Part shown: positions 9,350-57,955 of the stretch, in pieces
Position numbering within the stretch: position 1 is the stretch's first letter
Layout: each line of letters starts with the position of its first letter
Assembly: GCF_014863545.1 (NCBI RefSeq)
Contig: NZ_CP062260.1
Location: forward strand, 2,170,001-2,234,000
DNA length: 64,000 nucleotides
DNA from: Paenibacillus sp. JNUCC32
GTDB taxonomy: Bacteria; Bacillota; Bacilli; Paenibacillales; Paenibacillaceae
Reading direction: 5' to 3'
Program-made: the position numbers and the translations under genes
The notes under the pieces: model-generated
What the model was told of the DNA's origin: nothing
The model's input: only the letters and a program-made list of their open reading frames with translations
Databases searched by the model: none

Positions 9350-9490
9350 TGTCGAGGGACTAGAACATGCTCCCTTAGAAAGTCGCTAAAATAGCGGCTT
9401 TTTTGTTTTATCGGTACAAGAACATGAGCCGATTACCGATTAGATAAGCATCTAACTATGTATACCAAACAATCTAACTGGCAGTTTTGC
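9350..9490 (+). repeat. Family B repeat, internally deleted copy
   Basis: Begins TGTCGAGGGACTAGAAC, contains the terminator core AGTCGCTAAAATAGCGGC followed by a T-run, then TATCGGTACAAG. The second palindrome arm is missing: it jumps to GAGCCGATTACCGATTAG and ATCTAAC. A degraded family A half-site (CTAACTGGCAGTTTTG) closes it at about 9470-9490. Confidence 0.75.
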
Positions 9491-9549
9491 GTAATGGGTG
9501 GTCATTATTATCAGACAGATGGGGAATGTTTCCTTTATAATATTTAGGT

Positions 9550-9588
9550 GACACTCCATTGCACTAACGGGACATGTTAGTGCAATTC
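9550..9588 (+). repeat. Family A repeat, single perfect hairpin copy
   Basis: TTGCACTAAC (9559-9568) and GTTAGTGCAA (9576-9585) are perfect 10-bp arms around GGGACAT. It is preceded by GACACTCCA, the same flank seen in the copy at 23193. Lies 110 bp before the next gene. Confidence 0.75.
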
Positions 9589-9698
9589 CAATTGGTCAGC
9601 GAATATTTAACTAGGTTTAAGAAGTTAAAAAGATAAGGGCGAATGATGTGCCAATAGGGTAAAGCCAGAGAAGAGAAGGAAATGGTGGAGGGATTCAA

Positions 9699-10304
9699 AT
9701 GATAAACATAATTGAAGAGCTTAAGAAGATGTCCCAAAAAAGAGGGTATGAAAATAAAGACGATTTTCAACAGCTGCTGGAAAGATGTAAGGATATAACG
9801 TTGTCAAATGAAGATGTTGAATTTTTAATAGAACTGTATTTTAAGGCTAAAAATTTGTACACTCGCAACACAATATTGAAAGCACTTGTGTTCTGTGAAG
9901 ATATTGATTTAAAGGAATTCTTCTTAAAAGCGTTTAAAAAAGAGCGCTACCTAGATATGAGATTGACTGCAATTCGAGGCTATGCAAAGTATGCAACTGA
10001 GAAAGAAGTAGAGAAACTAATGACTAAATTCATTGAAATTCTGATGAAGCGTCCTGAAAGCACGCCTTATAACTATCAAGAATATGAGCTGCTTCGCTCT
10101 ACTTTTGGGCTGCCGTATTTAGTAAATCAATATGGATATGCTTGTTTTGTTCAGGCATATGAGCAGGAAGAGAAACAATATCATGCCATGCCAGATGCTT
10201 TCAAAGGACATTTTACTTTAAATGAAAGAGGGGATATTGTCCAGCTTCGCTCATTAGGAGAAAGCAAGAGGATGCTTGATGAATTTAGAAGCAGAGGTAA
10301 TTGA
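9699..10304 (+). CDS. HEAT-like helical repeat protein, uncharacterised
   Basis: 201 residues, soluble, nearly all helical. Paired-helix periodicity such as RLTAIRGYAKYATEKEVEKL resembles HEAT repeats. The C-terminus GDIVQLRSLGESKRML looks like a conserved end in unannotated Bacillales proteins. No catalytic motif was found. GGAGG precedes the ATG. It is followed after 22 bp by a second small gene of unknown function, so the two are probably cotranscribed. Function not assigned. Confidence 0.7.
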   Translation: MINIIEELKKMSQKRGYENKDDFQQLLERCKDITLSNEDVEFLIELYFKAKNLYTRNTILKALVFCEDIDLKEFFLKAFKKERYLDMRLTAIRGYAKYATEKEVEKLMTKFIEILMKRPESTPYNYQEYELLRSTFGLPYLVNQYGYACFVQAYEQEEKQYHAMPDAFKGHFTLNERGDIVQLRSLGESKRMLDEFRSRGN

Positions 10305-10326
10305 AGTTTGAAAGGTAGTGACACTA

Positions 10327-10731
10327 ATGATGAAACAACAACTGTTGTTTAAATTCAACAGATTCTCAGCAAATGAAGTTTTGACGGCATGGGAAAACGC
10401 GGATAAATCAAAAGATGTAATACTATTAGAATCCGCCCATTCGGATTGGTCAATAGAAGTAGACGGTTTCCAAAATATCTCTTATCAAATGTTTGAACAC
10501 TTTCTATCTAAAATGGATGTATTTGATAATGGAGTGCAGCTTTATTGTAAAGAAGTCTATGAAAACAGTAATTTTAATATAGAACATTTTATCGTGTCAC
10601 TGCAGTGGATTTCATTACATGAAAACTCTATTACACTGGGATATTGGGGAGATTATGTAAACGTAGAGCTAAGATCCATCATAGAGTGCGACAATGGCAT
10701 CTGGGAGCAGAAAGACATCTATTATCAATAG
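10327..10731 (+). CDS. Hypothetical protein, immunity-protein-like
   Basis: About 134 residues, acidic, no signal peptide. The end ITLGYWGDYVNVELRSIIE is the kind of closing strand pair seen in several small bacterial immunity-type families, but no family is firmly recognised. ATG 10327 follows AAAGG at 10312; a GTG at 10318 in the same frame is less well placed. Probably cotranscribed with the HEAT-like gene upstream. Confidence 0.55.
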   Translation: MMKQQLLFKFNRFSANEVLTAWENADKSKDVILLESAHSDWSIEVDGFQNISYQMFEHFLSKMDVFDNGVQLYCKEVYENSNFNIEHFIVSLQWISLHENSITLGYWGDYVNVELRSIIECDNGIWEQKDIYYQ

Positions 10732-10819
10732 AAGCAAGATGCTTATATCAACGTGATCTGCTGCCTTCTTGTTCAACAAATGGACAGTGAGGCCCTGGTA
10801 TATTAACGGGAGGTTTACT

Positions 10820-12808
10820 GTGAAAATAAAGATTAAACATGCGATGCTTTTGGCAGTTAGTATTGTTTGGGTTGTTATCTTAGTCGGGTGTGGCAACGAC
10901 AATGAGTTAACGATTGATCAAGTGGACGTTATGGCCAAGGTAATGGCGGACGGTGACTTATATGTGGAAGAGCTATTCACTTACACAGTACAAGGAGAGT
11001 ATGAAAGAATTCCTAGATATATGGACAATTTCGGGGGAGCGAATATTGAATTTTTTGAAGCTTATGTACCGCCGAATGACCGAGAGCTCGGTAATCTTGG
11101 TTATGTTAATTTGGAGCGTTATCCGGTCTATTTAAGAACTAAATCGGGTTCTTATTACATCGAATTACAAGCTAAAGATGAAACGAGGCAGATCTATTAT
11201 CGCTATAGGCTTGATCGAGAAGCTGTGAAATATGACGATCGTGGAGAGCTGGATTGGACCGTACTCAAAGATAACAGGTTTGATCATCGCAACGTAACCG
11301 TTAGGGTATATACGGAACAGCCTGCAAAAGAGAATTTATCTGGATTTGCTTACGATCGCTCAAGAGGCAGCTTGACAGAAGTAAACAATCGTTGGATCAG
11401 GTACGAAAACGCGCTATTACCTGAAGGGGATAGTGCGAGGCTGAAGTTGTATTTCCCCCCAGAGGTGCTGACGGAGAGGGAAACAGAAGAGACCTCAGCC
11501 TCACTCTCGGAACGACTGTTAGCTGAACAGAAGCTTCAGCAAAGATTCGAAAAGCGTGAACATTTACTGAAAGCGGGTCAACATATCAGCCGCTGGCTGA
11601 CCTATGCAGCCATAGCAGGTATCGTATATTATTCCCTTTCACTGCGTAGGATTTCATCCTGGTGGAGGGGGAGGAGGATCAGCTTCGAAGATATCGCAGC
11701 GATGGATCCAATCGATATGATTTACCTTTTCCGGAAGGGAAAGCTCCGGCTTGCAGATGGGCTGGCCGGTGTATTTTCGCTGCGCCGTAAAGGTATGGTG
11801 AGTCTTTCCTTAGTGCCATCAGCTATGCGATTCCAGGAAGATTCGAGAGCGCCGAAGAGGCTTCCCGAGTTTACATTCAAGGGTAATCGTACAGCCCTGA
11901 ACAAACCGGACCGTTACTTGCTTGGTTGGCTGTCTCACGGTACGACTGTCCTGAACCTGGATAAATTTTCTGGCCCTACGAAAACAGAGCGCAGGAATAA
12001 AGCGACTATGGGTAAATACATAAAGCGCATGAGAAGTCTTAAAAAGGGACTCAGCCGCTGGCAGGAGCTTGTGGAGACTGAGAATAGCAAAGGGATCATG
12101 TACAAGGAATACGCGGCGAGAAAAGTCATCATGCCGGCTCTAGCTCTCATACATCTGGTTTTGCTCATCTATCTGTACATTGCAGACGTAACACCTTGGG
12201 GATGGGTAGGAGTATTGGCCATTGTTTTGGGCGGCGGACTCATATTAGCTATTTTTCGCTGGCGCCTCAAAAGATACATCATCGTCTTTTTGGTCGTTTG
12301 CTTTTTCGTGGCAGCTCCAATTTTGTATGATCCCCTGGTAGACGAATACTTGAACTTCGTAATTCTTTCATTTTTACTTGTTGGGTTATTACCCCGAGGA
12401 GCATTAGATCAGCGTTCGGCAGCTTACCGAAGCGCTATAAAGCGGTATCGACGAAAGCTGGCTAGAGGCGGACATGACGTAGGAAGGGCTAATAATGACC
12501 GCAAAATGCTGGAAAAGATGAGGGAAGATGCGCTATTACTTGGTGTAGGAGAACGTTTTATGAGAAATGTAAGCAAAGAAAACCCGGATTTTCCTTTATC
12601 AGAGGCTTCTTCCCTGTTTGATAACGATGTGGATACCGCTATCGATTATGTCTTTAATCGTTCTTGGAAGGGAATACCTGGGGGGACAACTTCCGGGAGA
12701 ACTCCGAGCAGCGATAGTGACAGTGGAGCAGACGGGGGGAGTTCATACTACAGTAGTGACAGTGGCAATGATGGAGGTTCGGGAGATGGCGGTGGGGGAG
12801 GAGATTGA
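10820..12808 (+). CDS. DUF2207-type membrane lipoprotein
   Basis: 662 residues. The N-terminus has a signal sequence ending in the lipobox LVGC, with the cysteine at about residue 24. An extracellular DUF2207-like domain follows (DVMAKVMADGDLYVEELFTY, residues about 30-240). A membrane segment is near 275, a cluster of hydrophobic helices at about 450-540, and the end is a Gly/Ser/Asp-rich tail as in other DUF2207 proteins. The family is membrane-anchored and functionally uncharacterised. GTG 10820 is chosen because GGGAGG lies 6 nt upstream; the longer frame from 10769 would hide the signal peptide. Confidence 0.82.
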   Translation: MKIKIKHAMLLAVSIVWVVILVGCGNDNELTIDQVDVMAKVMADGDLYVEELFTYTVQGEYERIPRYMDNFGGANIEFFEAYVPPNDRELGNLGYVNLERYPVYLRTKSGSYYIELQAKDETRQIYYRYRLDREAVKYDDRGELDWTVLKDNRFDHRNVTVRVYTEQPAKENLSGFAYDRSRGSLTEVNNRWIRYENALLPEGDSARLKLYFPPEVLTERETEETSASLSERLLAEQKLQQRFEKREHLLKAGQHISRWLTYAAIAGIVYYSLSLRRISSWWRGRRISFEDIAAMDPIDMIYLFRKGKLRLADGLAGVFSLRRKGMVSLSLVPSAMRFQEDSRAPKRLPEFTFKGNRTALNKPDRYLLGWLSHGTTVLNLDKFSGPTKTERRNKATMGKYIKRMRSLKKGLSRWQELVETENSKGIMYKEYAARKVIMPALALIHLVLLIYLYIADVTPWGWVGVLAIVLGGGLILAIFRWRLKRYIIVFLVVCFFVAAPILYDPLVDEYLNFVILSFLLVGLLPRGALDQRSAAYRSAIKRYRRKLARGGHDVGRANNDRKMLEKMREDALLLGVGERFMRNVSKENPDFPLSEASSLFDNDVDTAIDYVFNRSWKGIPGGTTSGRTPSSDSDSGADGGSSYYSSDSGNDGGSGDGGGGGD

Positions 12809-12824
12809 CTAAGTTAGTAAAAAT

Positions 12825-12940
12825 TGTCGGGTGACAAAAACATAGTAACATTAGAAGCCGCTGATTATGCGGCTTTTTATATTTAGGTTATCAAGCAATG
12901 ACAAGAACATGGTTACATTCCCGATTTGATTTCATCGAGG
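12825..12940 (+). repeat. Family C repeat (variant), copy 1, with terminator
   Basis: TGTCGGGTGACAAAAACATAG, then the stem AAGCCGC/GCGGCTT with T-run (12855-12878), then GACAAGAACATGG and CCCGATTTGATTTCAT. It acts as the terminator of the DUF2207 gene. Two further copies are at 21950 and 32328. Confidence 0.75.
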
Positions 12941-12979
12941 CAGCATACGTCTTTTTATTAAGTAAACGGGGGAAGGCGT

Positions 12980-13031
12980 GTCATATGACATTTTGACACT
13001 GTTGTACATAACAACGAGTGCAGTAGGATAC
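12980..13031 (+). promoter_or_regulatory. Duplicated 52-bp regulatory box, copy 1
   Basis: GTCATATGACATTTTGACACT (20 of 21 bases equal to copy 2), then 20 variable bases, then CAGTAGGATAC identical in copy 2 (14783-14834). It contains the palindrome GTCATATGAC. It lies about 70 bp before the esterase-type gene, so it is probably the promoter with binding sites for a shared regulator. Confidence 0.65.
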
Positions 13032-13101
13032 AGAAGAGAGTTCTGGGAACTAGAATATATCTCATCAAACCAAATCACAAAGTATTTAAGGAGAGGATTT
13101 T

Positions 13102-14442
13102 ATGAAACAGAAAATGGGTATCGCAATTGCTGCTTCGATGATCACACTGGCTGGTTTTACAGGAAATATTCATGCAGCTTCGAAAGTAGGTGATTCTCTT
13201 ATAGCTCCCTACAACTCCAATCAGAAAGCCGAGCAGATAAAATGGTTAGAAAAGCATGCCATGCCATTAAAGTCAACGGATCCAACAGCATCTCTTCAGG
13301 ATTTAAGACCGCTTAAGGATATGATCGGATCAGCTACAATTGTTGGTTTAGGCGAAGCGACGCATGGAGCTCACGAAGTTTTTACCATGAAGCATCGCAT
13401 TGTTAATTATTTGACAGCTGAAATGGGCTTTAAGGCCTTAGTGTTAGAAGAGGGATGGGACAGAGCATTGGGACTCGATCGCTATGTTCTTACGGGTAAA
13501 GGGGACCCAAGCCAATATCTAAGTCCTGTATTTAACACGAAAGAAATCATTGATCTGCTTCAATGGATACGCCAATATAATGCGGATCCAAAGCATAAAT
13601 CCAAAATACGGATCATCGGCATGGATATACAAACCGTAAACGAGAGTGTTTATAACAATATCCTAGCGTATATAAAGAAATACGATCCAAAACTTGTCAC
13701 TCGTTTCGATCAAAAGATGAAAGGCCTTATTCCTGTAACCAAGGATTTAGATACCTTTGGCGGCCTTAAGAAAGAAACGAAAGCACGGTATGTTTCAGAT
13801 GCGAAACAAATTAGCGCTTTATTAGAGCAAAATAAACATAAACTGAATGGAAAATCCCCAGAGTTCGCATGGATCAAACAAAATGCCCGTATTATTGAGC
13901 AATTTACGACAATGACAGCCGCATATCCTGATAACCTGGAAGACTTTTATTTGAAACACGATATTGCCATGTATGAGAATGCGAAATGGACTGAAGAACA
14001 TATAGGAAAAACAATCGTGTGGGGCCATAATGGGCACGTGTCGAAAACAAATATGCTTCCTTTCGTATACCCTAAAATGGCTGGGCAGCACTTAGCAGAA
14101 CATTATGGCAAACGGTATGTAACCATTGGAACATCTGTTTTCGAGGGACGTTACAATGTTTATAACACCAGCCAACAATTCGGGCCCTATGGAATCTTAA
14201 AATTAGATGACCCGAACAATTTTAATTATACGTTTGGACAAGTCAAATACGACCAGTTCTTTGTTGATTTACGTAAGGCAAGCGGAGTGACTAAAACTTG
14301 GATAAACGAGCAACATCCTATTTTTGCCGGAGTAACAACGGTAGGTCCAGATATCCCAACGACTGTTGATGTATCATTAGGTAAAACATTTGACATCCTC
14401 GTTCACATTCAGAAAGTGAAGCCCTCTCAACTGAATCAATAA
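13102..14442 (+). CDS. Secreted erythromycin-esterase-family protein
   Basis: 446 residues with a Sec signal peptide (MKQKMGIAIAASMITLAGF, cleavage near AHA/ASK). The erythromycin esterase fold (PF05139) is recognised from GLGEATHGAHEVF and its catalytic-type Glu/His, MKHRIVNYL, LEEGWDRA, and the later WGHNGHVSK. Members hydrolyse macrolide lactones, but many environmental homologues have unknown substrates, and an exported form is unlike the cytoplasmic EreA/EreB enzymes. AAGGAGAGG precedes the ATG. The promoter box is shared with the sensor/kinase operon downstream. A family-B-type terminator follows. Confidence 0.82.
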   Translation: MKQKMGIAIAASMITLAGFTGNIHAASKVGDSLIAPYNSNQKAEQIKWLEKHAMPLKSTDPTASLQDLRPLKDMIGSATIVGLGEATHGAHEVFTMKHRIVNYLTAEMGFKALVLEEGWDRALGLDRYVLTGKGDPSQYLSPVFNTKEIIDLLQWIRQYNADPKHKSKIRIIGMDIQTVNESVYNNILAYIKKYDPKLVTRFDQKMKGLIPVTKDLDTFGGLKKETKARYVSDAKQISALLEQNKHKLNGKSPEFAWIKQNARIIEQFTTMTAAYPDNLEDFYLKHDIAMYENAKWTEEHIGKTIVWGHNGHVSKTNMLPFVYPKMAGQHLAEHYGKRYVTIGTSVFEGRYNVYNTSQQFGPYGILKLDDPNNFNYTFGQVKYDQFFVDLRKASGVTKTWINEQHPIFAGVTTVGPDIPTTVDVSLGKTFDILVHIQKVKPSQLNQ

Positions 14443-14462
14443 AATCTTAATTATGTATGCTT

Positions 14463-14495
14463 AAAAGTCGCTTAGTTGCGGCTTTTTTGTTTTAA
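14463..14495 (+). terminator. Terminator, family B core only
   Basis: AAGTCGC-TTAGTT-GCGGCTT followed by TTTTGTTTTA, the same stem and T-run as the middle of the family B repeats, without the flanking palindromes. The 300 bp after it hold no recognisable gene. Confidence 0.75.
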
Positions 14496-14782
14496 CGATT
14501 TATGTTTGTCAAAAACCGATAGACTTCCAAAATATGGACTGTCATGTTGACAGCGAGAATACGGTGTATGATTTTGTTCTGGGCTGAATTTTAGAGCGAT
14601 CATTCAATATGAAAGCACATTGAAAGAGAAAATGCATAAAGCTGGCTGATTTGGTTTAGTGCTTAATTACTTTTTTCCCTGTAGTATAGTAAGAGAATAC
14701 TGGCACACAGGGGTCTTCCTGGTTTTGAACAATTCTACTGTGCAGTTGGTCATAACCGTAGCTTACACTCCGTTCATTTTAT

Positions 14783-14834
14783 GTCATATGACATTATGAC
14801 ACTGGCAGAATTGACATCAAGAGCAGTAGGATAC
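14783..14834 (+). promoter_or_regulatory. Duplicated 52-bp regulatory box, copy 2
   Basis: GTCATATGACATTATGACACT, 20 variable bases, CAGTAGGATAC, with the same spacing as copy 1 at 12980. It is immediately upstream of the sensor-domain gene and hence of the fused kinase-regulator. A NarL-type regulator binding here would autoregulate its own operon. Confidence 0.65.
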
Positions 14835-14866
14835 GTTTACTACTTGCAAAGGATGTGAGCTCTTTG

Positions 14867-15454: not shown

Positions 15455-15556
15455 ACGAATGCCCTGCTTCGCTTCGTAGGTCGTCGGAGGATAGTTTACT
15501 CTATAGCAGTTTACTTTATAATAGTTACGTAATGTCATACTGAAAGTCTTTAGGGG

Positions 15557-17765: not shown

Positions 17766-17868
17766 TGTCGGGGGACAAGAACTTGAGCCGATAACCGATT
17801 AGATAAATATCTAACTGCTTTCCATACAATTTCATTAAGCTAACGGGCAGGTTAGTTCCAATATGTGG
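17766..17868 (+). repeat. Family B/A composite repeat, deleted copy
   Basis: TGTCGGGGGACAAGAACTTG joins directly to GCCGATAACCGATTAG, so the terminator and palindrome are missing. The right part is TTTCATTAAGCTAACGGGCAG then GTTAGTTCCAATATGTGGT, the latter tail shared with the copy at 33046-33150. Confidence 0.75.
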
Positions 17869-19420: not shown

Positions 19421-19454
19421 TGCAATTTCATTAAGCTAACGGGCAGGATAGTGG
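19421..19454 (+). repeat. Family A half-site
   Basis: AATTTCATTAAGCTAACGGG followed by CAGGATAGTGG. A single right half-site; it abuts the broken gene upstream and precedes the yjdF leader. Confidence 0.75.
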
Positions 19455-19484
19455 AACGGTTTAACAATTGTGAAAAATGTGATA

Positions 19485-19610
19485 TAACCTTAAAGGAGTG
19501 TAAAAACACAGATCGGTTGGTAGTCCGGTCGCACAGGGTCAGTTCCAGTGTCAGTGACCTTCCCCCCTCGGGATGTCCATCACTCCAGTAAAAACAGAGG
19601 GGGAGTAAGT
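19485..19610 (+). ncRNA. yjdF-motif riboswitch
   Basis: The leader contains CAGATCGGTTGGTAGTCCGG, then GGTCAGTTCCAGTGTCAGTGACC, and lies directly ahead of a yjdF-type gene. The yjdF motif is an established RNA class that responds to azaaromatic compounds. CTTCCCCCCTC (about 19558-19568) can pair with the GAGGGGGAG that holds the ribosome binding site (19597-19605), so control of translation is likely. Boundaries are approximate. Confidence 0.75.
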
Positions 19611-20027
19611 GTGAAGCTTACCGTATTGTTTGATGAAAGTTGTAAGTACTGGATTGGTGTGATTGAGCAGGAAGAACAAGGACGTCTAAAAGCTTGTCGT
19701 CATATTTTTGGCAACGAGCCAAAGGATCCGGAGATATTAGAGTTCGTTAGCGAGAAAATGATGGAATTGATGAACCTTACGAAGGTAGGAACGGATGCGA
19801 AACGAAGTAAAAACACTCGAATAAATCCGAAAAGACTAGCTCGGCAGGCGTCTAGAGAGATTGCCCAACGAGGTTTATCTAGCCATGCTCAGGAGGCAAT
19901 AAAGCTGGACCTCGAATCCAGGAAACTGCAACGAAAAGTGCATAATCGTCAACAAAATCTTGTGGAAAATGAAAGGAAATATCAACTTAGAGTTCAAAAG
20001 GCGAAGAAGAAGCACAGGGGCAAATAG
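19611..20027 (+). CDS. yjdF: YjdF family protein (DUF2992)
   Basis: 138 residues. The N-terminus KLTVLFDESCKYWIGVIEQEEQG and the basic, lysine-rich helical C-terminus (LQRKVHNRQQ...KKKHRGK) are typical of DUF2992/YjdF. Its biochemical role is unknown; in Bacillus it is controlled by an azaaromatic-sensing riboswitch, suggesting a response to toxic aromatic compounds. GTG 19611 is chosen because GGGGGAG is 5 nt upstream, and this ribosome site is the part the riboswitch can hide; the longer frame would run through the RNA element. Confidence 0.85.
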   Translation: MKLTVLFDESCKYWIGVIEQEEQGRLKACRHIFGNEPKDPEILEFVSEKMMELMNLTKVGTDAKRSKNTRINPKRLARQASREIAQRGLSSHAQEAIKLDLESRKLQRKVHNRQQNLVENERKYQLRVQKAKKKHRGK

Positions 20028-20466: not shown

Positions 20467-20598
20467 TAGGTAAAAGGAAAATAAGCTACGGTTGTCTGAA
20501 ACCAGTGACGTCTAAAAATAAAGGAGTTCGTAAGTTCGAAGAAAAGGAAATATAAACTGTCCTTAAGCTTTTTTATGTAGAAAAGGATCCCAAGAGGT

Positions 20599-20712
20599 CT
20601 AGGGACAAGAACTGTCGAGGGACAAGACATGATCCCATAGAAAGTCGCTATTTTAGCGACTTTTTTGTTTTATCGGTACTAGTTCTTGTTAACGGACAGG
20701 ATAATTCAATGT
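20599..20712 (+). repeat. Family B repeat fused to family A end
   Basis: Starts with a partial duplicate of its own end (GGGACAAGAACTGTCGAGGG), has the AGTCGCT/AGCGACT terminator and TATCGGTACTAGTTCTTGT. It then joins directly to TAACGGACAGGATAATTCAAT, so the second palindrome arm and linker are lost. Confidence 0.8.
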
Positions 20713-21949: not shown

Positions 21950-22020
21950 TGTCGGGTGACAAAAACATAGTAACATTAGAAGCCGCTGATTATGCGGCTT
22001 TAAATATTTATGTTATCAAG
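21950..22020 (+). repeat. Family C repeat, copy 2
   Basis: TGTCGGGTGACAAAAACATAG, then AGTAACATTAGAAGCCGC and TGATTATGCGGCTT. Nearly identical to the copy at 12825, but the T-run is interrupted. CAACACA/TGTGTTG just before it (21919-21951) can form another hairpin. Confidence 0.75.
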
Positions 22021-22125: not shown

Positions 22126-22220
22126 TGTCGAGGGACAAGAACATAGTCCGATTACCGGTTTGATAAGTCTCTAACGATGGTTCCATGGAATTTCATTAAG
22201 CTAACGGGCAGTTTAGTTTA
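22126..22220 (+). repeat. Family B/A composite repeat, deleted copy
   Basis: TGTCGAGGGACAAGAACATAG, then CCGATTACCGG and ATAAGTCTCTAAC, ending in TTTCATTAAGCTAACGGGCAG and TTTAG. The terminator and long palindrome are absent, as in the copy at 17766. Confidence 0.75.
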
Positions 22221-22358
22221 AAAATAATAATTTTGCTGTCTGGTAAAAGGGAAATTATAGGCCAATTGGCGAATGTATAAAATATTTTTCCTGAATATTA
22301 GTACTACAAAGATTTTACTGATAAATAGTTAATTATCAATTACATAGTGAGGTGTAAT

Positions 22359-23114
22359 ATGAACTCCAATTGCAAGGCACCTAAATTGCTGCAACAACTT
22401 GTGGAATGGGAAGGTTCTTTTGCACATGAGGTTGCATATCTAGAAAACCCTTCAGGACTTTTCCTCGGATTAGATTATAGTCAAGATGGTTACTTCTGTA
22501 CTCCCGTAGACAGCATTCCATTTGCCAGCACTGGTGGAGACGGTGTACACTTTGCGCTCCTAACAGATTTTGGAGTAGTTAAAGATTTAGAAGAGGCTTT
22601 AGTTATTAGAGTGTCTCCTATGGATCATGAACGTGTTCGTATAGTTGCGAAGAATATAAATGATTTTTTTTCACTTCACTTTTACAATGAATCGTTAGCA
22701 TGGAACGAATTCCAAAATGAAGATCGATACTTAAGTCATCTCCAAGAAGAACAAAGTAGGGAAAGTAATTCAGAATGGTTTGATCATGATCGGTGGAAGT
22801 TCGAAAAAGGAAAGGTGTTAAATGAAGTAAAGAATAGGTTCAACATTTTGCCTATAGAACAGCCTTTTTCCTATATAAACAATCTTCGTATAGAAAGATC
22901 ATTCCAAGTAACTGTAAATACTCTAGATTCAATTGGTACCAAACAATTTATGCCAGCAGTGTCTAATGAAACTATAGAAATGTTAGCACTCGTTCGCCAT
23001 CTTCAACATACTTGCTCTGGTGATAAAACTTTAATTGACCGAATTGCCAATGATCTTCGTTTATTAGGGTATAACCACGAGGCTGACTCACTAGTTTCTC
23101 GTCTATTCATTTAA
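22359..23114 (+). CDS. Hypothetical protein, cassette-like single gene
   Basis: 251 residues, soluble. The middle segment TPVDSIPFASTGGDGVHFAL and LLTDFGVVKDLEEALVIRVSP has the look of a SUKH-like (SMI1/KNR4-type) module, as found in many orphan immunity proteins, but the match is weak. GAGGTG precedes ATG 22359; the frame can be extended to GTG 22347 without a ribosome site. Flanked by repeats on both sides. Confidence 0.6.
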   Translation: MNSNCKAPKLLQQLVEWEGSFAHEVAYLENPSGLFLGLDYSQDGYFCTPVDSIPFASTGGDGVHFALLTDFGVVKDLEEALVIRVSPMDHERVRIVAKNINDFFSLHFYNESLAWNEFQNEDRYLSHLQEEQSRESNSEWFDHDRWKFEKGKVLNEVKNRFNILPIEQPFSYINNLRIERSFQVTVNTLDSIGTKQFMPAVSNETIEMLALVRHLQHTCSGDKTLIDRIANDLRLLGYNHEADSLVSRLFI

Positions 23115-23192
23115 ACATCGAACAGTTACCGGGTGGCAGCTGCTCCTTTTTTCGTTAGAAAACAATCTATACAATTCAGAATTATATTTAGA

Positions 23193-23297
23193 TGACACTC
23201 CATTGCACTAACGGGAAACGTTAGTTCAATAGAAGACAAGAAGGCAGCCGTTATCGAGATCGGCTTCTTTTGTTCAACTAACGGGCAGTTTAATGCA
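23193..23297 (+). repeat. Family A double repeat (complete)
   Basis: Left site CATTGCACTAACGGGAAACG followed by TTAGTTCAAT; centre hairpin AAGAAG..AGCCG / CGGCTTCTTTT; right site CAACTAACGGGCAGTTTAAT. The whole element folds on itself: the outer ends TTGCA[C/T]TAA and the inner CGTTAGTT pair, leaving GGGAAA opposite GGGCAG unpaired. The T-run after the centre stem can terminate transcription. Confidence 0.8.
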
Positions 23298-23375
23298 ACT
23301 GAAGGAATTCCAGGAAATATGGGGAATTCTATTTTTACCCCATATGGGAGATATCAGTAAAGTGAGGGAGATACG

Positions 23376-24041
23376 ATGAGTCAAACCGCAAATAAATTTG
23401 AAAAAGAAATAACTAAAAGAGTGCGGATGAAATACCTCTTACATTTGCCAGATCAACATGAAAAAGAATCCGCAATTAAGTGGCCTTTAATCTTATTTCT
23501 TCATGGGGCAGGTGAACGTGGAGATGATCTGGAGTTGGTTAAAGCACATGGAATTCCTATGATAGCAGAACGCGATCCTTCTTTTCCATTCATTACGATC
23601 TCCCCTCAATGCCCGGAGGATTCTTTTTGGAATGCTGAACAAGACGGATTGATGGCATTAGTAGATGAGATCATTGCAAACTATAACGTAGATCCAGATC
23701 GGATATACTTGACGGGGCTAAGCATGGGTGGTTATGGGACGTGGCACTTAGCAGCAGAATATCCAGGAAGGTTCGCAGCTATCGCTCCAATATGTGGTGG
23801 AGGTAACCCCAACCGGGTACATGAACTAATAGGAACACCCACCTGGGCATTCCATGGCGCGAAGGATGATATAGTGCCCATTGCTGAATCAAAAAAAATG
23901 GTAGACGCACTTCGCGAAAACGGCGGAAAAGTCTCTTTCACAATTTATCCTGAGTCGAATCACAACTCTTGGACAGAAACATACGATAATCCGGAATTAT
24001 ACAGCTGGTTTCTAGGTCATTCTCTAATGGTAAGGAAATGA
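23376..24041 (+). CDS. Alpha/beta hydrolase (PHB-depolymerase/esterase-like)
   Basis: 221 residues. The oxyanion region LILFLHGAGERGDD, the nucleophile elbow GLSMGGYGTW (Ser near residue 117), the acid in AKDDIVP and the catalytic histidine in ESNHNSW form a complete triad. The type is close to the LpqC/prolyl-oligopeptidase-like esterases. There is no signal peptide, so it acts in the cytoplasm. GTGAGGGAG is upstream of the ATG. A single gene between two double family A repeats, the clearest cassette-like unit in the window. Confidence 0.85.
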   Translation: MSQTANKFEKEITKRVRMKYLLHLPDQHEKESAIKWPLILFLHGAGERGDDLELVKAHGIPMIAERDPSFPFITISPQCPEDSFWNAEQDGLMALVDEIIANYNVDPDRIYLTGLSMGGYGTWHLAAEYPGRFAAIAPICGGGNPNRVHELIGTPTWAFHGAKDDIVPIAESKKMVDALRENGGKVSFTIYPESNHNSWTETYDNPELYSWFLGHSLMVRK

Positions 24042-24048
24042 AGTTGTT

Positions 24049-24146
24049 TTACACTAACGGGACACGTTAATTTAAAATAGCATGGAGCAGTTCGCCTGTA
24101 GGCAGCTGTTCCTTTTTTTAAGCTAACGGGCAGGGTAGTTCAATAA
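24049..24146 (+). repeat. Family A double repeat (complete)
   Basis: Left site ACACTAACGGGACACGTTAA, centre hairpin GGAGCAG...CTGTTCC with a seven-base T-run, right site AAGCTAACGGGCAGGGTAG. It follows the hydrolase stop codon by 8 bp. Confidence 0.8.
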
Positions 24147-24978: not shown

Positions 24979-25071
24979 GTCGGGGGACAGCATGGTCCCA
25001 TTGAAAGTTGCTAATTTAGCGGCTTTTTTGTTTTATCGGTACAAGTTCTTGTCCCGAGTCGAGGACAATAA
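24979..25071 (+). repeat. Family B repeat, truncated at the right
   Basis: TGTCGGGGGACAGCATGGTCCC, terminator AGTTGCT...TAGCGGC with T-run, palindrome left arm TCGGTACAAGTTCTTGTCC; the right arm breaks off after GAGGACAA. Confidence 0.8.
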
Positions 25072-28294: not shown

Positions 28295-28378
28295 CTTAAA
28301 CTAACGGGATACGATAGCAGAGGAGCTTGCAGCGATGTGGCTCCTCTTTTCTTATTGAAGTAACGGGCAGCTTATCGT
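28295..28378 (+). repeat. Family A double repeat (diverged)
   Basis: Left AAACTAACGGGATACGATAG, centre stem AGGAGC...GCTCCT with T-run, right AAGTAACGGGCAGCTTATCG. The end blocks differ from the other copies, so the outer-arm pairing is not maintained in the same way. Confidence 0.7.
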
Positions 28379-28392
28379 GAAAGGATCTCGAT

Positions 28393-32141: not shown

Positions 32142-32226
32142 ACCAACGATAGTTCAATAATGAACAAGAAGCCAGCCGATTACTTTGACCGGCTGGCTTT
32201 ATCCAGCTGACGGGCAGGTTAGTTAA
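32142..32226 (+). repeat. Family A double repeat
   Basis: Left half CAACGATAGTTCAATAATG, centre hairpin AAGCCAGCCG...CGGCTGGCTT, right half CAGCTGACGGGCAGGTTAG. It starts at the end of the GC-rich tract and terminates the serine hydrolase gene. Confidence 0.75.
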
Positions 32227-32269
32227 GTATAAACGTACTTTAGTGTAGAAAACCTAACTGATATGAGAC

Positions 32270-32400
32270 ATTTGCTGTTATGTCCGATTACCGATTTAAC
32301 ACATATCTAATACAAAGAAAAGAACGATGTCGGGCGACAAAAACATAGTGACATTAGAAGCCGCTGATTATCCGGCTTATCAACTTCTTGTCAAAATAAA
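32270..32400 (+). repeat. Family B fragment followed by family C copy 3
   Basis: TGTCCGATTACCGATTTAAC (32281) is the family B right end. TGTCGGGCGACAAAAACATAG with AGAAGCCGCTGATTATCCGG (32328-32377) is family C with one stem mismatch. Its right end TTCTTGTCAAAA joins the APH-type remnant directly. Confidence 0.7.
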
Positions 32401-33045: not shown

Positions 33046-33145
33046 CTGAATAACGGGAAACGTTAGCTCATTGAAGACATAAAGAGGCAGTCGGCTTTTG
33101 GGTCGGCTGCTTTTTCTCAACTAACGGACAGGTTTTTTCCAATAT
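33046..33145 (+). repeat. Family A double repeat (complete)
   Basis: Left CTGAATAACGGGAAACGTTAG, centre GGCAGTCGGC...GTCGGCTGC with T-run, right CAACTAACGGACAGG. The tail CCAATATGTGGT is shared with the copy at 17766-17868. Confidence 0.8.
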
Positions 33146-34793: not shown

Positions 34794-34991
34794 TGTCCGA
34801 GGACAAGAACATAGCCCATTTGAGAGTCGCTAATTTAGCGGCTTTTTTGTTTTATCGGTACAAGTTATTGTCCCAATTCGAAGACAAGAACTTGTACCGA
34901 TTTCCGTAAAGGATAAGAACATGAGCCGATTACAATTAGATAAGCGTCTAACTATATTTCCATTCAATTTCATTAAGGTAACGGGCAGGAT
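34794..34991 (+). repeat. Family B/A composite repeat, full length
   Basis: In order: TGTCCGAGGACAAGAAC; terminator AGTCGCTAATTTAGCGGC with T-run; palindrome arms at 34854-34872 and 34883-34901 (one mismatch); GAGCCGATTACAATTAG and GCGTCTAAC; then TTTCATTAAGGTAACGGGCAG. This is the most complete B-to-A unit, about 198 bp. Confidence 0.85.
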
Positions 34992-35226
34992 CACTCACCA
35001 ATCTGGATTGATTGAAGAATCGCTTGTGAAAGATACATTAAAACTGGCTTATGTTGCGTTAAGCAGACCGCGCTATTTCGCAGGCGTAGCGATGCATAAA
35101 GAAAATGTTGCGGATGAAACCATTTTGGTCGCTGCAAGACATTATTGGAGGATCGTAAAAGTTGAAGAGGAACACGAATCCTTTTCAGAAGAGTTGTCGC
35201 ATCTGACATTACAATCCGTTAATTGA
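34992..35226 (+). pseudogene. UvrD-type helicase, C-terminal remnant
   Basis: SLVKDTLKLAYVALSRPRYF followed by AGVAMHKENV is the late motif of UvrD/Rep-family helicases (KxAYVAxSRPxH). About 75 codons to the natural-looking end LTLQSVN remain. The upstream edge is exactly the right end of the family A half-site, with no start codon of its own. Confidence 0.5.
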
Positions 35227-44834: not shown

Positions 44835-44997
44835 TGTCGAGAGACAAGAACAAGGTCCCAAAGAAAGTCGCTTATTTAGCGACTTTTTTGTTTTATAGGT
44901 ACAAGTTCTTGTCCCGAGTCGAGGACAAGAACTTGTACCTATTACCGTAATGGACATGAACTTGGTCCGATTACCGATATGATAAATATCTAATCAG
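44835..44997 (+). repeat. Family B repeat with complete palindrome
   Basis: TGTCGAGAGACAAGAAC, terminator AGTCGCTTATTTAGCGACT with T-run, perfect 20-bp arms at 44895-44914 and 44923-44942, then CCGATTACCGATATG and ATATCTAATC. Both arms carry compensating changes (TAGGTA/TACCTA) relative to the copy at 34794 (TCGGTA/TACCGA). No gene was recognised in 44610-44834. Confidence 0.85.
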
Positions 44998-45116
44998 CTT
45001 GTTATTCTAACCATGATTTTGTATTATACGTGTTTTTTGATATCGTTGTCGCACATTATCACAGAGCTGCTGGGAACAATCAGTTTAAGCCACCCCAAAT
45101 AAGTTGGAGGAAGTGC

Positions 45117-47865: not shown

Positions 47866-47892
47866 TCAACTAATAGGCAGGATAGTCAAATA
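47866..47892 (+). repeat. Family A right half-site
   Basis: TTCAACTAATAGGCAGGATAG; an isolated half-site after the terminator. No other feature was recognised before the next gene. Confidence 0.55.
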
Positions 47893-51735: not shown

Positions 51736-51931
51736 TCAGAAATGATCACCTCCCTTTTCATCAACGTTAGATTTTCCAACGCATCGGATCTTATACTAAA
51801 ATGGATTGCCGGAGATGTAAGATCCGTATATTCCCATACCGTTCACAGGAATATAAACAAATTCTTAACCTCATACTTAATTCTGTTTAACTTAACTGAA
51901 TGATCTTGCTCAAAAGGGAGGAGTACTCACT

Positions 51932-52213: not shown

Positions 52214-52235
52214 GACGGTTTTGGCACAGATAGGC

Positions 52236-52464: not shown

Positions 52465-52563
52465 CTGTCTCAGACATTTTCAAAAAAAATTATCGAAACC
52501 GGATATGATTAAGCAGTGTAGCCCAATATATACAATTTGCCGGACTTTGATCACTTTATTGGG

Positions 52564-52695
52564 AAAAATCCCCTTTCAGTAGACAAGAGAAAAAAGACAT
52601 CTGTTAAGATGGACTTAATCTTGCCTAACGAATGAAGGGGATTTTTTCATGACTAAAAAAGAAAAGGACAAGAACATGTGCCGATGTGTCCCAAG
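52564..52695 (+). repeat. Inverted repeat and IS-end-like remnant with family B fragment
   Basis: AAAAATCCCCTT (52564-52575) and AAGGGGATTTTT (52635-52646) form an inverted pair around 59 bp. Immediately after, ATG 52650 opens MTKKEKDKNMCRCVPS and stops, like the start of a transposase or other gene cut short. GGACAAGAACATGTGCCGAT (52668-52687) is a family B piece. The region to 52960 has no gene. Confidence 0.35.
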
Positions 52696-52960
52696 CTGAT
52701 CCGTCTACCCAGTAACCGTGTCGCCAATCACAAGTATTTCGTTGGTAATGGGCGCGGGCTTACGCTTTTGGGTCCGGGAAAATTGATATTATCAATTACG
52801 ATAAACGAGATTTATGTATAAGCCATCCTTTATTTCAAATTCTGCAATCGATCGAGCCTGTTGATCTTGTTACCAATTATTACATACCTTATAATCTCAT
52901 TATGTGCAAATGCGTGCACAGTAAGAAAAAGAACAAATTCAAAAAGATAGGAAATCAACC

Positions 52961-54187: not shown

Positions 54188-54295
54188 GCAGCTGGTGTTT
54201 ATCTAATTGTCTGACGTTTAAGTCGAAGGGCATTAAAACGGCTTGCTGATCGGGGAAAACTTTACCGCATATGCCATAGCTCATAACACTCCCAA

Positions 54296-54390
54296 ATAAT
54301 TAAGCTAACGGTGTCGAGGGACAAGAACAGGGTCCCATAGAAAGTCGCTATAATAGCGGCTTTTTTGTTTTATCGGTACAAGTTTTACAA
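54296..54390 (+). repeat. Family A half-site joined to family B left end
   Basis: AATTAAGCTAACGG runs directly into TGTCGAGGGACAAGAAC, then GGGTCCC, AGTCGCTATAATAGCGGC with T-run and TATCGGTACAAG, where it breaks. The order A-then-B is opposite to the other composites and suggests insertion of B inside an A site after CTAACGG. Confidence 0.8.
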
Positions 54391-54577
54391 TTTTTAATGA
54401 AGAAGGAGAAGTTGATGAAATTAGTTTTTCCCCATAGACGAACTACCATCTCCTGTCATATTTCACTGTACAAAGGATAAGAGATGCAGTCCATTTCCAA
54501 GGTAAGGTCTTTACGAGAACAAAATATACGTACGTAATTATGTAATAGGCGATACAAAAGGACATTAAAAAGAAAAT

Positions 54578-54594
54578 GGCACCCTTTGGGTGCC
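54578..54594 (-). terminator. Minus-strand terminator-like hairpin
   Basis: GGCACCC-TTT-GGGTGCC; on the minus strand it is followed by ATTTTCTTTTT, just beyond the stop of the fragment at 54606. Confidence 0.55.
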
Positions 54595-54605
54595 GCTTGA
54601 GCATG

Positions 54606-54756
54606 TTATGGTTTTAATAACTTATCCGATAGCGTGAGGTGATACAGATCTCGCCTGTCGCCGGTGTCGGCTGTGGCCCCTGCAGCTGTAATTTGTATGG
54701 AGTTAAAGTTAGTTTTGGTAAAGCTCAAGCTCGAACCGGGGTCAACCTTCAACTTT
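54606..54756 (-). pseudogene. C-terminal fragment of an unidentified protein
   Basis: Open minus-strand frame of about 49 codons without a start, KLKVDPGSSLSFTKTNFNSI then QITAAGATADTGDRR and LTLSDKLLKP. The polar, strand-rich pattern and the hairpin after its stop suggest the true end of a lost secreted protein. No family recognised. Confidence 0.3.
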
Positions 54757-54909
54757 CATCGAGATTTTATCTGATATTGAACTTGTGAACAATTTAAGTA
54801 CGTAAGGGAGGTATGGAAATCCACTGGACTTACAAGTGGTATCGTATGGAAAAGAATCTAGATTAACAATATACTAGCTATAACAGTTTATTGTTGAGGA
54901 GAATATTAA

Positions 54910-55470
54910 ATGGATGAAGTCAACGAATCAAAACAAATTGTATTACAAATGGGCGGTGCCTTGAAAAAGTACAGAAAAGAAAAAAATATGAGCTTAGACG
55001 ATTTAGCGGAATTAACGGGCGTAAGCAAACTTACTCTGGGGAATATCGAACGTGGCGAAACAAATCCAACTTTAGCGATTATATGGAAAATTTCAAAAGG
55101 CATATCTTTACCGCTATTTGCTTTGTTCAAATCAGAGAACCCTGTTAGTTTGTATCGAGCAGGCGAAGGATTACGGTTTTCTAATGATGAAAAAAATTGG
55201 ATCATTGAACCAGTCTTTAAAAGCAGCGATATGGAAATGTGTCGGGCATACCTACAGCCAAATAGCTCGTATTACCCTGAAGGTCATCATGTGAATACAA
55301 CTGAAATCGCGACAGTAATGACTGGCTCCATTGAAATTCAAGTCAATGAAGAGATTTATACATTGAATCAATATGATACGATCAGTTTTCGTGCAGATTG
55401 TCCTCACTCTTATACCAATCATACGAATAGCGAAACAGTGCTCCATATATCCTTAAAATATGGTTTCTAA
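54910..55470 (+). CDS. XRE-family regulator with cupin domain
   Basis: 186 residues. Helix-turn-helix LDDLAELTGVSKLTLGNIER followed by GETNPTLAIIWKISKGI, then a C-terminal cupin (NTTEIATVMTGSIEIQVNEE, SFRADCPHSYTNHT). This HTH-plus-cupin type controls transport or amine/amino-acid genes in many bacteria. GAGGAG is 8 nt before the ATG. The next gene is an MFS exporter 222 bp away, a plausible target. A terminator separates them. Confidence 0.88.
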   Translation: MDEVNESKQIVLQMGGALKKYRKEKNMSLDDLAELTGVSKLTLGNIERGETNPTLAIIWKISKGISLPLFALFKSENPVSLYRAGEGLRFSNDEKNWIIEPVFKSSDMEMCRAYLQPNSSYYPEGHHVNTTEIATVMTGSIEIQVNEEIYTLNQYDTISFRADCPHSYTNHTNSETVLHISLKYGF

Positions 55471-55495
55471 AAGTCGATAAATTCTACTTATTAAA

Positions 55496-55540
55496 AACAA
55501 CTCCGAATTCATGGCGGGAATTCAGAGTTGTTTTTTTATT
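55496..55540 (+). terminator. Rho-independent terminator
   Basis: AACAACTCCGAATTC / GAATTCAGAGTTGTT with loop ATGGCGG, then TTTTTT. Confidence 0.85.
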
Positions 55541-55692
55541 GTCAGATGAGTTTTGGTATATCTTAAAATATTTATTGTTAATTTTAATATATTATAATAT
55601 ACTTTTGTTGTTCGCGCGGATGTTATAGCAAAGTTTTTTTCAATCAACAGGTAGCAAATCATACGTAAGAATTCAGGAAGGAGAAGTGAAGA

Positions 55693-56919
55693 ATGCCGAA
55701 CAAACCAAAAAACGTACCGTCCTCTATATTGCTGATTATTCTCGGCATTATTGTTATCGCAGCTAATTTACGTACTCCCTTAACCTCAGTCGGTCCTTTA
55801 GTGAGTCTTATAAGGGATGACGTTCATATTTCAAATACATTAGCAGGCCTGATCACAACGGTACCCTTGCTCGCCTTTGCTTTATTATCGTCTTTAGTAC
55901 CAAAATTAGGACGAAGATATGGGGTTGAGCGTGTCATTTGGATTGCCCTTATCTTTCTGACTGCTGGTATTGTCATACGTTCATTATCTGGCGCAGTTAA
56001 TCTGTTTATTGGGACAGCAGTTCTTGGATTCGCCATTGCCGTATGTAATGTATTATTGCCAAGTATAATCAAAAGGGATTTCCCGGATAAAATTGGCTCC
56101 ATGACAGGTGTTTACTCCATTTCAATGAATTTATGTGGAGCAATCGCATCGGGGATCAGTGTACCGCTAGCCGTGAACGCAGGTCTAAAATGGCAGGGAG
56201 CACTGGGAATATGGGGGATTCTAAGCTTTGTATCGATCCTCTGTTGGCTACCCCAATTAAGAAATCAAACAAAACAAACTGCCACGACGAGTCAAAGGAT
56301 GGTCAGCTACGATGTGAATGTTTGGCGATCCCCGCTTGCCTGGCAAGTAACGTTATTTATGGGTATACAGTCCATGGTATTCTATGTGTTGATCGCATGG
56401 TTGCCTGAAATTTTAAAGCAGCAAGGAATTGACTCCAACCAATCAGGATGGTACCTCTCGATCATGCAGTTAGCGATGCTCCCATTTACCTTTATTGTCC
56501 CCGTTATTGCCGGGCGCATGTCTAGCCAACGTTTATTAGTGGTCATCACAACCATTTTGCTTATGACGGGAACGATCGGACTTCTTTACGGAAGCTCCAA
56601 TATCATTCTGCTGTGGATCATCATGCTCGGAATTGGTGGAGGCTTCGCTTTTAGTTTGTCCATGATGTTTTTCGGGTTGCGCACTCAAAATGCGCATCAA
56701 GCAGCGGAACTGTCTGGCATGGCCCAATCGGTCGGATATCTTCTTGCCGCAATCGGCCCTGCCCTTATAGGATATCTGCATGATGCGACAAATAGTTGGA
56801 ACCTGCCACTTTTCATTCTGCTTGGGGCTTCGGTCGTACTCTTTTTAGTCGGTATAGGAGCAGCAAGTAATCGTTTTGTAGGTAGCCGGAATCGTTACGA
56901 GTTGCCACGGAAAGGATGA
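55693..56919 (+). CDS. MFS transporter, CynX/NimT (YycB-like) family
   Basis: 408 residues with about twelve hydrophobic helices. The start IIVIAANLRTPLTSVGPLVS, then AGLITTVPLLAFALLSSLVP, is the signature of the CynX/NimT/YycB branch, which moves cyanate, nitroimidazoles or other small compounds. Located in the cytoplasmic membrane. AAGGAG is 8-9 nt before the ATG. Its stop overlaps the leader of the universal stress protein gene, so both form one unit, likely under the XRE-cupin regulator. Confidence 0.88.
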   Translation: MPNKPKNVPSSILLIILGIIVIAANLRTPLTSVGPLVSLIRDDVHISNTLAGLITTVPLLAFALLSSLVPKLGRRYGVERVIWIALIFLTAGIVIRSLSGAVNLFIGTAVLGFAIAVCNVLLPSIIKRDFPDKIGSMTGVYSISMNLCGAIASGISVPLAVNAGLKWQGALGIWGILSFVSILCWLPQLRNQTKQTATTSQRMVSYDVNVWRSPLAWQVTLFMGIQSMVFYVLIAWLPEILKQQGIDSNQSGWYLSIMQLAMLPFTFIVPVIAGRMSSQRLLVVITTILLMTGTIGLLYGSSNIILLWIIMLGIGGGFAFSLSMMFFGLRTQNAHQAAELSGMAQSVGYLLAAIGPALIGYLHDATNSWNLPLFILLGASVVLFLVGIGAASNRFVGSRNRYELPRKG

Positions 56920-56924
56920 TAAAT

Positions 56925-57356
56925 ATGTTTGACAAAATTATGGTGGCCATTGATAAAGCTGAAATAACGAACAAAATCCTCGATGCAACCATTGAAATAG
57001 CCCGAAACAAACAAACCCAAGTTACCTTGGTTCATGTCAGCCAGGATTATGTGTCGAACGGAATGACATATGTACCAGTGAATTTCTTGGAAGAAGTATT
57101 GAACGAAATGGAGAAAGCGAGTCTGGAACAGCTGCAAGAAGCCAAATCTAAATTAAAATCTGCGGGAATTAACCCGGAAACCATTCATCTTAAGGGAGAT
57201 CCTGCACATGAAATATTAAATTATGCATGGGATACCGAGCAGCGACTTATTATTATCGGAAGCCGTGGCCTAAGGGGAGTAAAAGGAATGATGCTTGGAA
57301 GTGTCAGCCACAAGGTTTCTCAGTTATCAAGTTGCCCAGTCCTCATTGTACATTAA
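56925..57356 (+). CDS. Universal stress protein (UspA family)
   Basis: About 143 residues. FDKIMVAIDKAEITNK opens the fold, and the ATP-binding motif G-2x-G-9x-G(S/T) appears as GSRGLRGVKGMMLGSVSHKV, ending CPVLIVH. ATG 56925 is chosen because AAAGGA lies 8 nt before it; ATG 56916 overlaps the stop of the exporter gene. Cotranscribed with the exporter. Confidence 0.9.
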   Translation: MFDKIMVAIDKAEITNKILDATIEIARNKQTQVTLVHVSQDYVSNGMTYVPVNFLEEVLNEMEKASLEQLQEAKSKLKSAGINPETIHLKGDPAHEILNYAWDTEQRLIIIGSRGLRGVKGMMLGSVSHKVSQLSSCPVLIVH

Positions 57357-57793
57357 CTCCTTCGGGAACTGCTGAGATGATGTAGTGTTATACTGGCAGG
57401 GGAATGTTTATCGTACTATATCTATTAGTTGTTCACAGGCTGACGCTAAAGATGACGGGAGGGGGACCTGTCACTACACGGTGCTCCACAACGATCACCA
57501 CCGTCCGGGCGCGCACGAAGAAATGTAAAATTCTGTTAATAATATGGATAAAAATGACACAACGTTACCATTTTGCTCGGAGTTAATGACACAAAGTCAT
57601 CCCTTTGGTTGGAGGTTACGACATAAAGATTCCCTTTATATGGTGCAATGGAATTGTTCACTGTTTGCGCTCCAAAACAAAAAGTTTATGTGTTAGAAAC
57701 GAGTAGAAGAGGGCAAAATCGTGTCAATAATGAGAGTAACTTTAACAATCCATAATAAATAATGGCTGAAAGGTGATAAGGTCATTAGACATC
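57357..57793. other. Intergenic stretch, no recognised gene
   Basis: Contains short frames without ribosome sites. The repeated words AATGACACAA (57553, 57587) might be ends of a lost insertion sequence, but nothing firm is visible. Confidence 0.35.
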
Positions 57794-57955
57794 TGTCGAG
57801 GGACAAGAACATGGTCCCATTGAAAGTCGCTATTATAGCGGCTTTTTTGTTTTATCGATACAAGTTCTTGTCCCGATTTGTGGACAAGAACTTGTATCGA
57901 TTGCCGAAAAGGACAAGAAGATAGTACGATTACCGATTAGATAAGCATACAACTG
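57794..57955 (+). repeat. Family B repeat with complete palindrome
   Basis: TGTCGAGGGACAAGAACATGG then TCCC, terminator AGTCGCTATTATAGCGGC with T-run, perfect 20-bp arms at 57854-57873 and 57882-57901, then CCGATTAGATAAGCATAC. The arms read TCGATA/TATCGA where other copies read TCGGTA/TACCGA, a paired change. Confidence 0.85.

Follow-up and report, generated by a model that had tools for sequence, protein, structure and literature searches.

A co-oriented array of putative mobile gene cassettes in Paenibacillus sp. JNUCC32 and an Xer-like recombinase associated with its core sites

Cassette capture is known mainly from integrons (IntI, attI and attC), which also occur as sedentary chromosomal arrays and as clusters of attC sites lacking integron integrases (CALINs). 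In the staphylococcal cassette chromosome (SCC) elements, the recombinase gene lies inside the mobile unit and units accumulate side by side at attachment sites; these elements use serine recombinases and a single chromosomal attachment site, and they are much larger than the units described below. The dif modules of Acinetobacter have their sites in alternating orientation. The modules are described as genes between short Xer-type sites, shuffled between replicons and species by means of host XerC/XerD and dif-like sites (PMC6449649, PMC13141974). An insertion in the catalytic domain is stated to be essential for the integron integrase (PMC8138268). A survey of complete genomes lists a single complete integron in Firmicutes, that of Limnochorda pilosa, and a few CALINs (PMC9024848). 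Here we analysed 64,000 nucleotides of the chromosome of Paenibacillus sp. JNUCC32 (NZ_CP062260.1, positions 2,170,001 to 2,234,000; the window), in which interspersed repeats alternate with genes. To judge from sequence comparison, the window probably lies in a chromosomal array of mobile gene cassettes, and a short core shared by the repeats would be the recombination site of an Xer-like tyrosine recombinase. The site itself, its orientation and clustering, the borders of shared genes at cores, and the association of the recombinase with cores and its bounding by them are established.

The common element of the repeats is an imperfect palindrome of about 21 bp, CTAACGGGCAGNNTAGTTNAA (core2), with the variant CTAACGGGA-ACG-TAG (core1). 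In the 7.0-Mb genome, core2 was matched 18 times with at most two mismatches, always on the plus strand and within 137 kb (C1:2156204-2293639), and a reversed-pattern control gave no match. With at most one mismatch, all 12 matches to core1 were on the plus strand between 2.160 and 2.294 Mb; at two mismatches, 13 scattered matches were obtained, 2 of them on the minus strand, and the controls gave 8 and 9. Core2 was present in 143 of 197 Paenibacillaceae genomes, often clustered and co-oriented (control 0-2 per strand and genome). These genome-wide matches and those in other Paenibacillaceae genomes exclude one recent tandem duplication with few copies confined to the window.

A motif screen of 1069 reading frames from the fetched arrays gave two clear tyrosine recombinases. 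One is a 280-aa Xer-like protein (P0001, array of genome G094); the other, of 360 aa in genome G074, resembles an XerS-like protein of the window genome. A 525-aa serine-recombinase-like frame was seen in a fetched stretch with a core array (L094:16602-18179, minus strand, genome G053). Relatives of P0001 with at least 68% identity occurred in 32 of the 197 genomes, and the median core count was 11 with the recombinase versus 2 without (p = 6e-11; 11 of 43 genomes with recombinase matches, those below 40% identity, were dropped before this comparison). The recombinase occurred in none of the 54 core-free genomes. The flanks of the gene were compared in the best 80 of 238 loci, which belong to Paenibacillus, Cohnella, Brevibacillus, Bacillus sp. 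and one metagenome-assembled genome. Flanking cores had the same orientation as the gene in 305 cases and the opposite one in 11, and the majority per locus ran with the gene in 67 loci, was tied in 13 and ran against it in none. A core1-like site was located upstream of the gene in 62 of 78 testable loci (20% in control windows) and a core2-like site downstream in 43 of 76 (2.7% in controls); both were found in 37 loci.

Between core1 and the start codon, identity was 73% (24 loci), and between the stop codon and core2 it was 64% (22 loci), whereas outside the unit it was 36 and 34%, equal to the values for shuffled sequence (33 and 34%). The 24 loci were hand-picked from the 80, most of them with recognisable cores, which biases the identities inside upward and leaves those outside unaffected. 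From this difference between inside and outside, the recombinase unit appears to move as a whole, from core1 to core2. A hairpin that takes in the ribosome-binding region forms in the leader of the gene (z -3.1 to -5.2 in four loci) and suggests controlled expression.

Profile searches with the recombinase gave 193 bits for XerC, 190 for XerD, 187 for XerA and 91 for the integron integrase (integrase_gron, cut-off 265), all below the cut-offs. The IntI-specific insertion is absent, with about 40 residues missing as judged from alignment offsets. The nearest solved sequences were XerD and archaeal Xer proteins, and the structure model (predicted local distance difference test 89.5, predicted template modelling score 0.70) returned XerA first by E-value, as well as lambda integrase, IntI4 and XerH. 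Residues R138, K162, H229, R232, H255 and Y264, which we take to be the catalytic residues, were invariant in 31 relatives. Relatives at 52-53% identity were found in two other families of the class, and a phylum search at 1e-50 matched 11 of 398 genomes, two of them Paenibacillaceae. At the locus of the 52% relative, in another family, CTAAGGGGCAGGTTAGTTCAA lies downstream of the gene.

The arrays of eight further genomes have blocks of up to 1252 bp in common, in different order. Within 15 nt of a core lay 31 of 184 block ends in the first set (null mean 4.5, maximum 13 in 1000 shifts), and within 20 nt lay 48 of 258 in the second (null 8.7, maximum 21). The core pattern used for these counts is loose, with 87 plus and 44 minus sites in the window genome, and the same sites served for the shift null. 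The second set was taken from the flanks of the 80 recombinase loci with the recombinase masked, so its loci differ from those of the first while genomes may overlap; ends near masked or contig borders were removed. Blocks shorter than 250 bp were left out of all block-end and neighbour counts. Antiparallel blocks were also left out (4 of 368 rows in the first comparison, 7 of 98 in the second), the first set using only the ends of the first sequence for them. No collinear second block was present within 1.5 kb for 46 of 50 blocks in the first set and 66 of 91 in the second. The pattern is clearest for an APH-family gene (PF01636). The 1.1-kb stretch that carries it is shared at 97% identity by P. 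radicibacter (L155) and P. pabuli (L157), with homology from CTAACGGGCAG until just after CTAACGGGACACG and with different hairpins and flanks. Units of the same layout are found in the window at 22201-23224 and 23278-24070. Because block ends fall at cores above chance and neighbours mostly differ, the genes between cores behave as cassettes. Their functions are unrelated: ten window genes searched against Pfam included erythromycin esterase, APH kinase, SUKH, hydrolase, DUF2207, sensor and copper amine oxidase N-terminal domain matches, and three had no match.

Several observations weigh against the cassette reading. Half of the genomes with at least 8 cores (21 of 42), the window genome among them, had no recombinase match of at least 68% identity, and a full-length or nearly full-length recombinase was present in only 17 of the 32 positive genomes, the rest having fragments or broken genes. 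A core2-like site was missing after the gene in 33 of 76 loci and a core1-like site before it in 16 of 78, the core1 pattern being loose enough to match one in five control windows. No core was evident at the locus of the 53% relative (genome G585). The majority of block ends (153 of 184 in the first set, 210 of 258 in the second) were away from cores; this is expected where BLAST stops early, yet it is no proof of cassettes. Pairing between the two ends of a cassette was weak, with at least 7 of 8 matches in 13 of 202 cassettes (within-locus null 6.3, maximum 14; global null 4.6; p 0.08 over all eight positions; z 2.1 in the first scoring), and attC-like single-strand folding of core cassettes is thus not supported. 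Finally, collinear neighbours were found for 25 of the 91 blocks in the second set, compared with 4 of 50 in the first.

Such collinear neighbours would also be expected if only the repeats moved. The family A repeat would then be a small, non-autonomous version of the recombinase unit, able to insert between genes, and ordinary homologous recombination between repeats would exchange genes between species. The A element and the recombinase unit do have both ends in common, core1 and core2, with a terminator hairpin adjoining core2; ends shared with an autonomous element are a feature of miniature inverted-repeat transposable elements. However, the copies are confined to one region of the window genome, and beyond the cores the neighbours of shared genes are mostly unrelated. 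Identity also begins and ends inside the short core though the flanking hairpins differ, whereas under homologous recombination the hairpin would tend to be transferred as well. We regard movement of the repeats alone as unlikely.

In the preferred cassette mechanism, the recombinase would bind both arms of a core, cut at or next to CTAACGGG and exchange strands between cores. The DNA between two cores could then leave, presumably as a circular intermediate, and re-enter at another core; the exchange may involve one or two strands, and the recombinase may be active today. Three kinds of unit would take part: gene cassettes from core2 to the next core1, terminator units running from core1 to core2, namely family A and the longer bodies B and C, and recombinase units with the same two borders. 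An asymmetric spacer would fix the single orientation, and entry only at existing cores would keep the copies clustered. In the window, the following features were located.

9351-9450, plus: B, shortened
9564-9580, plus: core1 alone (family A site 9550), CTAACGGGACATGTTAG, 11-bp complementary arms
12826-12895, plus: C copy
14465-14492, plus: B fragment, terminator only
17767-17820, plus: B without terminator, 20 nt before core2
17840-17860, plus: core2
19436-19456, plus: core2, then azaaromatic riboswitch and yjdF-type gene
20597-20690, plus: B with doubled start
20689-20699, plus: degenerate core2 joined to B copy, TTAACGGACAG
21951-22020, plus: C copy
22127-22180, plus: B without terminator, before core2
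22201-22221, plus: core2, left border of putative gene cassette
22201-23224, plus: putative gene cassette from core2 to core1 with one 255-aa gene (22347-23114), no Pfam match
23208-23298, plus: complete A element (core1, terminator hairpin, core2)
23278-24070, plus: putative gene cassette from core2 to core1 with one 221-aa hydrolase-like gene (23376-24041)
24054-24143, plus: complete A element
24979-25050, plus: B, shortened
28301-28380, plus: complete A element
32142-32227, plus: A element, core1 damaged
32329-32398, plus: C copy, terminator damaged
33050-33141, plus: complete A element
34795-34977, plus: long B copy ending at core2
34978-34998, plus: core2 after long B copy
44836-45010, plus: long B copy without core2
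47870-47885, plus: degenerate core2
52666-52690, plus: B fragment
54304-54311, plus: half core (GCTAACGG) fused to B copy
54313-54395, plus: B, shortened
57795-57960, plus: long B copy without core2

An earlier note on this DNA had described plus-oriented, terminator-bearing repeat families that form a dense system alternating with single unrelated plus-strand genes. This description was borne out, and all 26 sites it listed were read at their coordinates. The 12 sites assigned to family A turned out to be heterogeneous. A complete A element consists of core1, a terminator hairpin that differs in sequence from copy to copy, and core2; this layout was seen in full at 23193, 24049, 28295 and 33046 and with a damaged core1 at 32142. 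Six sites are single or degenerate cores (9550, 17840, 19421, 22195, 34967 and 47866), several of them core2 alone, and at 54296 there is only a half core, to which the B copy at 54310 is directly joined. Among the 11 B sites, long copies stand at 34794, 44835 and 57794, the terminator is absent at 17766 and 22126, 14463 and 52668 are fragments, and the remaining four are shortened. The three C copies were confirmed, with 96% and 78% identity to the first. Three repeat motifs were more frequent in the window than in shuffled sequence, their counts being reached in 0 of 100 shuffles: TAACGGGCAG (at most one mismatch) gave 16 matches on both strands, 14 plus and 2 minus, versus a shuffled mean of 3.2; AGCGGCTTTTTTG (at most two) gave 12, 10 plus and 2 minus, versus 2.7; and GGACAAGAACATG (at most three) gave 44 versus 17.7.

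The repeat system runs on past both ends of the window. Over a 284-kb stretch around it, plus-strand matches numbered 31 for the B motif, 27 for the terminator motif, 20 for the C motif and 17 for the B-tail motif (95 in total), and none of these motifs was matched on the minus strand. Looser 10-base core motifs had 41 and 18 plus-strand matches (59 in total) against 7 and 2 on the minus strand (9 in total). Self-comparison of the same 284 kb yielded 448 repeat pairs, 424 of them in direct orientation. B and C are longer terminator-bearing bodies of the same layout. When B was considered as a separate site, its left border proved sharp. The B motif was matched 42 times forward and 8 times in reverse in the whole genome, and the fetched 204 kb holds 42 forward matches. 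Of these 42, 22 lie 60-70, 92-99 or 172-179 nt before core2, 25 lie within 220 nt before it and 17 lie beyond 1.6 kb. B motif counts correlated with core counts (rho 0.53). Short B forms (17767 and 22127 in the window, and several B starts in genome G115) resemble fusions of the first and last GGACAAGAAC repeats with loss of the terminator, as expected from recombination between B's own repeats. The independence of families A, B and C is partly superseded, A and about half of the B motifs being tied to one core. The three are best described as bodies that vary in length, with attachment to this shared site in roughly half of the B motifs.

The hairpins with T-runs lie 3' of genes and in gene orientation, as they would if the repeats were terminators or other RNA elements held by selection and spread by gene duplication. 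That explanation is very improbable, given that several cores have no terminator (17840, 19436 and 22201), that the copies are regional and that block borders lie at cores. The core, rather than the terminator, best explains the orientation, the clustering and the alternation with genes, and terminator function may be an added role. Among known RNA families, the only match in the window at the gathering threshold was an azaaromatic (yjdF) riboswitch at 19490-19596 (82 bits). It starts about 34 nt after core2, overlaps the start of the frame 19548-20027 and seems to be located inside a cassette.

Folding of A elements in the manner of attC sites was also considered. Candidate pairs of core1 and core2 extracted as A elements numbered 101, chance pairs among them; 64 were parsed and the other 37 dropped as unparsable. 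No excess arm pairing was found in the 64 elements (core1 dyad p 0.85, core2 dyad 0.12, inner arms 0.98, outer arms 0.86), and attC-like folding of A elements was rejected. The arms of a single core reassort freely across the same elements, with no co-variation. Core exchange would produce this, but it is no proof.

Paenibacillaceae also have a second cassette system, of IntI type. An IntI-like gene occurs in 77 of the 197 genomes (1e-40), followed in several by arrays of attC-like sites, and sites of the form CGTGAATACNNNNAC/GTTAYRYG were present in 149 of 197 genomes with up to 67 copies. In the window genome the IntI-like tyrosine recombinase gene is at C1:2849273-2849986 (G000, L030); the protein ends in SPLD, and attI-like DNA follows. 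The protein scored 183 bits with integrase_gron (cut-off 265), and because its catalytic K-to-H spacing is 65 residues, the IntI insertion seems to be absent. Open frames of its relatives (L057-L085) are mostly 370-440 aa, and with 238 aa the frame of the window genome seems truncated at the N terminus. In 48 of 67 usable IntI-type cassettes, the six bases that follow GTT at the cassette start were exactly complementary to the R'' box of the same cassette (shuffled mean 3.4, maximum 11; 67 of the possible cassettes between 117 sites were used), compared with 6 of 45 for the R'' box of the next cassette. The IntI-like gene with its attC-like arrays looks like a genuine integron system in Paenibacillaceae.

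The core system and the IntI-type system are interleaved in the window genome. A GNAT acetyltransferase cassette at C1:2272648-2273404 recurs behind the IntI-like gene at 2.849 Mb, near-identical by eye from GTTACATG, an apparent cassette copy inside one genome. At C1:2271890, 2280316, 2289380, 2293620 and 2194124, core2 is followed by a stretch resembling the attI-like DNA behind the IntI-like gene, and at the first four of these positions a GTTA start as in IntI-type cassettes comes next. These positions seem to be meeting points of the two systems. With some IntI-type cassettes in the array and an IntI-like gene at 2.85 Mb, the cores might be taken for attC sites of the IntI-like integrase and the array for an ordinary integron array. 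However, presence of the IntI-like gene was not associated with core count (median 2 versus 3, p = 0.32), six fetched IntI-type arrays (128 kb) contained no core2-like site, and the IntI-type sites differ in sequence and have the strong end-to-end complementarity that core cassettes lack. This explanation was rejected as hardly credible.

Compared with the described systems, the putative core cassette system shares with integrons long co-oriented arrays, mostly single-gene cassettes, a tyrosine recombinase and, like CALINs, orphan arrays; block ends and changed neighbours point to exchange of a cassette array at a short site. In contrast to integrons, its recombinase has no IntI insertion and is encoded inside the array, between core1 and core2 in a unit of its own and in several copies in some genomes, rather than at a fixed intI/attI platform at the array end. 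The site sequence also differs, and clear end-to-end cassette pairing is lacking. Unlike the dif modules, the core system has a dedicated recombinase that travels with the sites, and its arrays are chromosomal with all sites of an array pointing one way, so that the alternating orientation is not seen. The nearest solved structures and models are those of the Xer recombinases XerC, XerD and archaeal XerA, but the protein falls below the curated cut-offs for all three and appears to travel between array sites instead of serving one dif site. Like SCC elements, the mobile unit carries a recombinase gene, but enzyme class, number of attachment sites and unit size differ. The core system works like an integron and like dif modules, and it departs from the former in integrase and platform and from the latter in orientation. 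Among the titles and abstracts listed from the open-access literature, closed journals lying outside the search, no report of such a system was found.

The array of the window itself looks orphaned, because no P0001-type recombinase was found in its genome (search at 1e-30). A tblastn search of the surrounding 284 kb (0.01) gave no recombinase remnants. None of the six Phage_integrase genes of the genome is inside the array; by NCBIfam they resemble XerD, XerS, a further Xer type, a phage type and a short form, the sixth being the IntI-like gene. The degenerate cores, the fused B copies and the B copies that lack a terminator are consistent with decay of the array. The array is probably a relic or dependent on an enzyme from elsewhere.

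With somewhat less confidence than for the array itself, we favour the view that a cassette platform independent of integrons evolved in Paenibacillaceae, with an Xer-like recombinase that travels in the array, arrays of at least 100 kb, and two cassette systems side by side, one of them IntI-type. The core system offers a defined site and enzyme for bench work. If the reading is true and a dedicated Xer-like recombinase does the work of an integron integrase in a large family of soil bacteria, cassette platforms would have arisen more than once, and cassettes would account for some of the variation in gene content within Paenibacillus.

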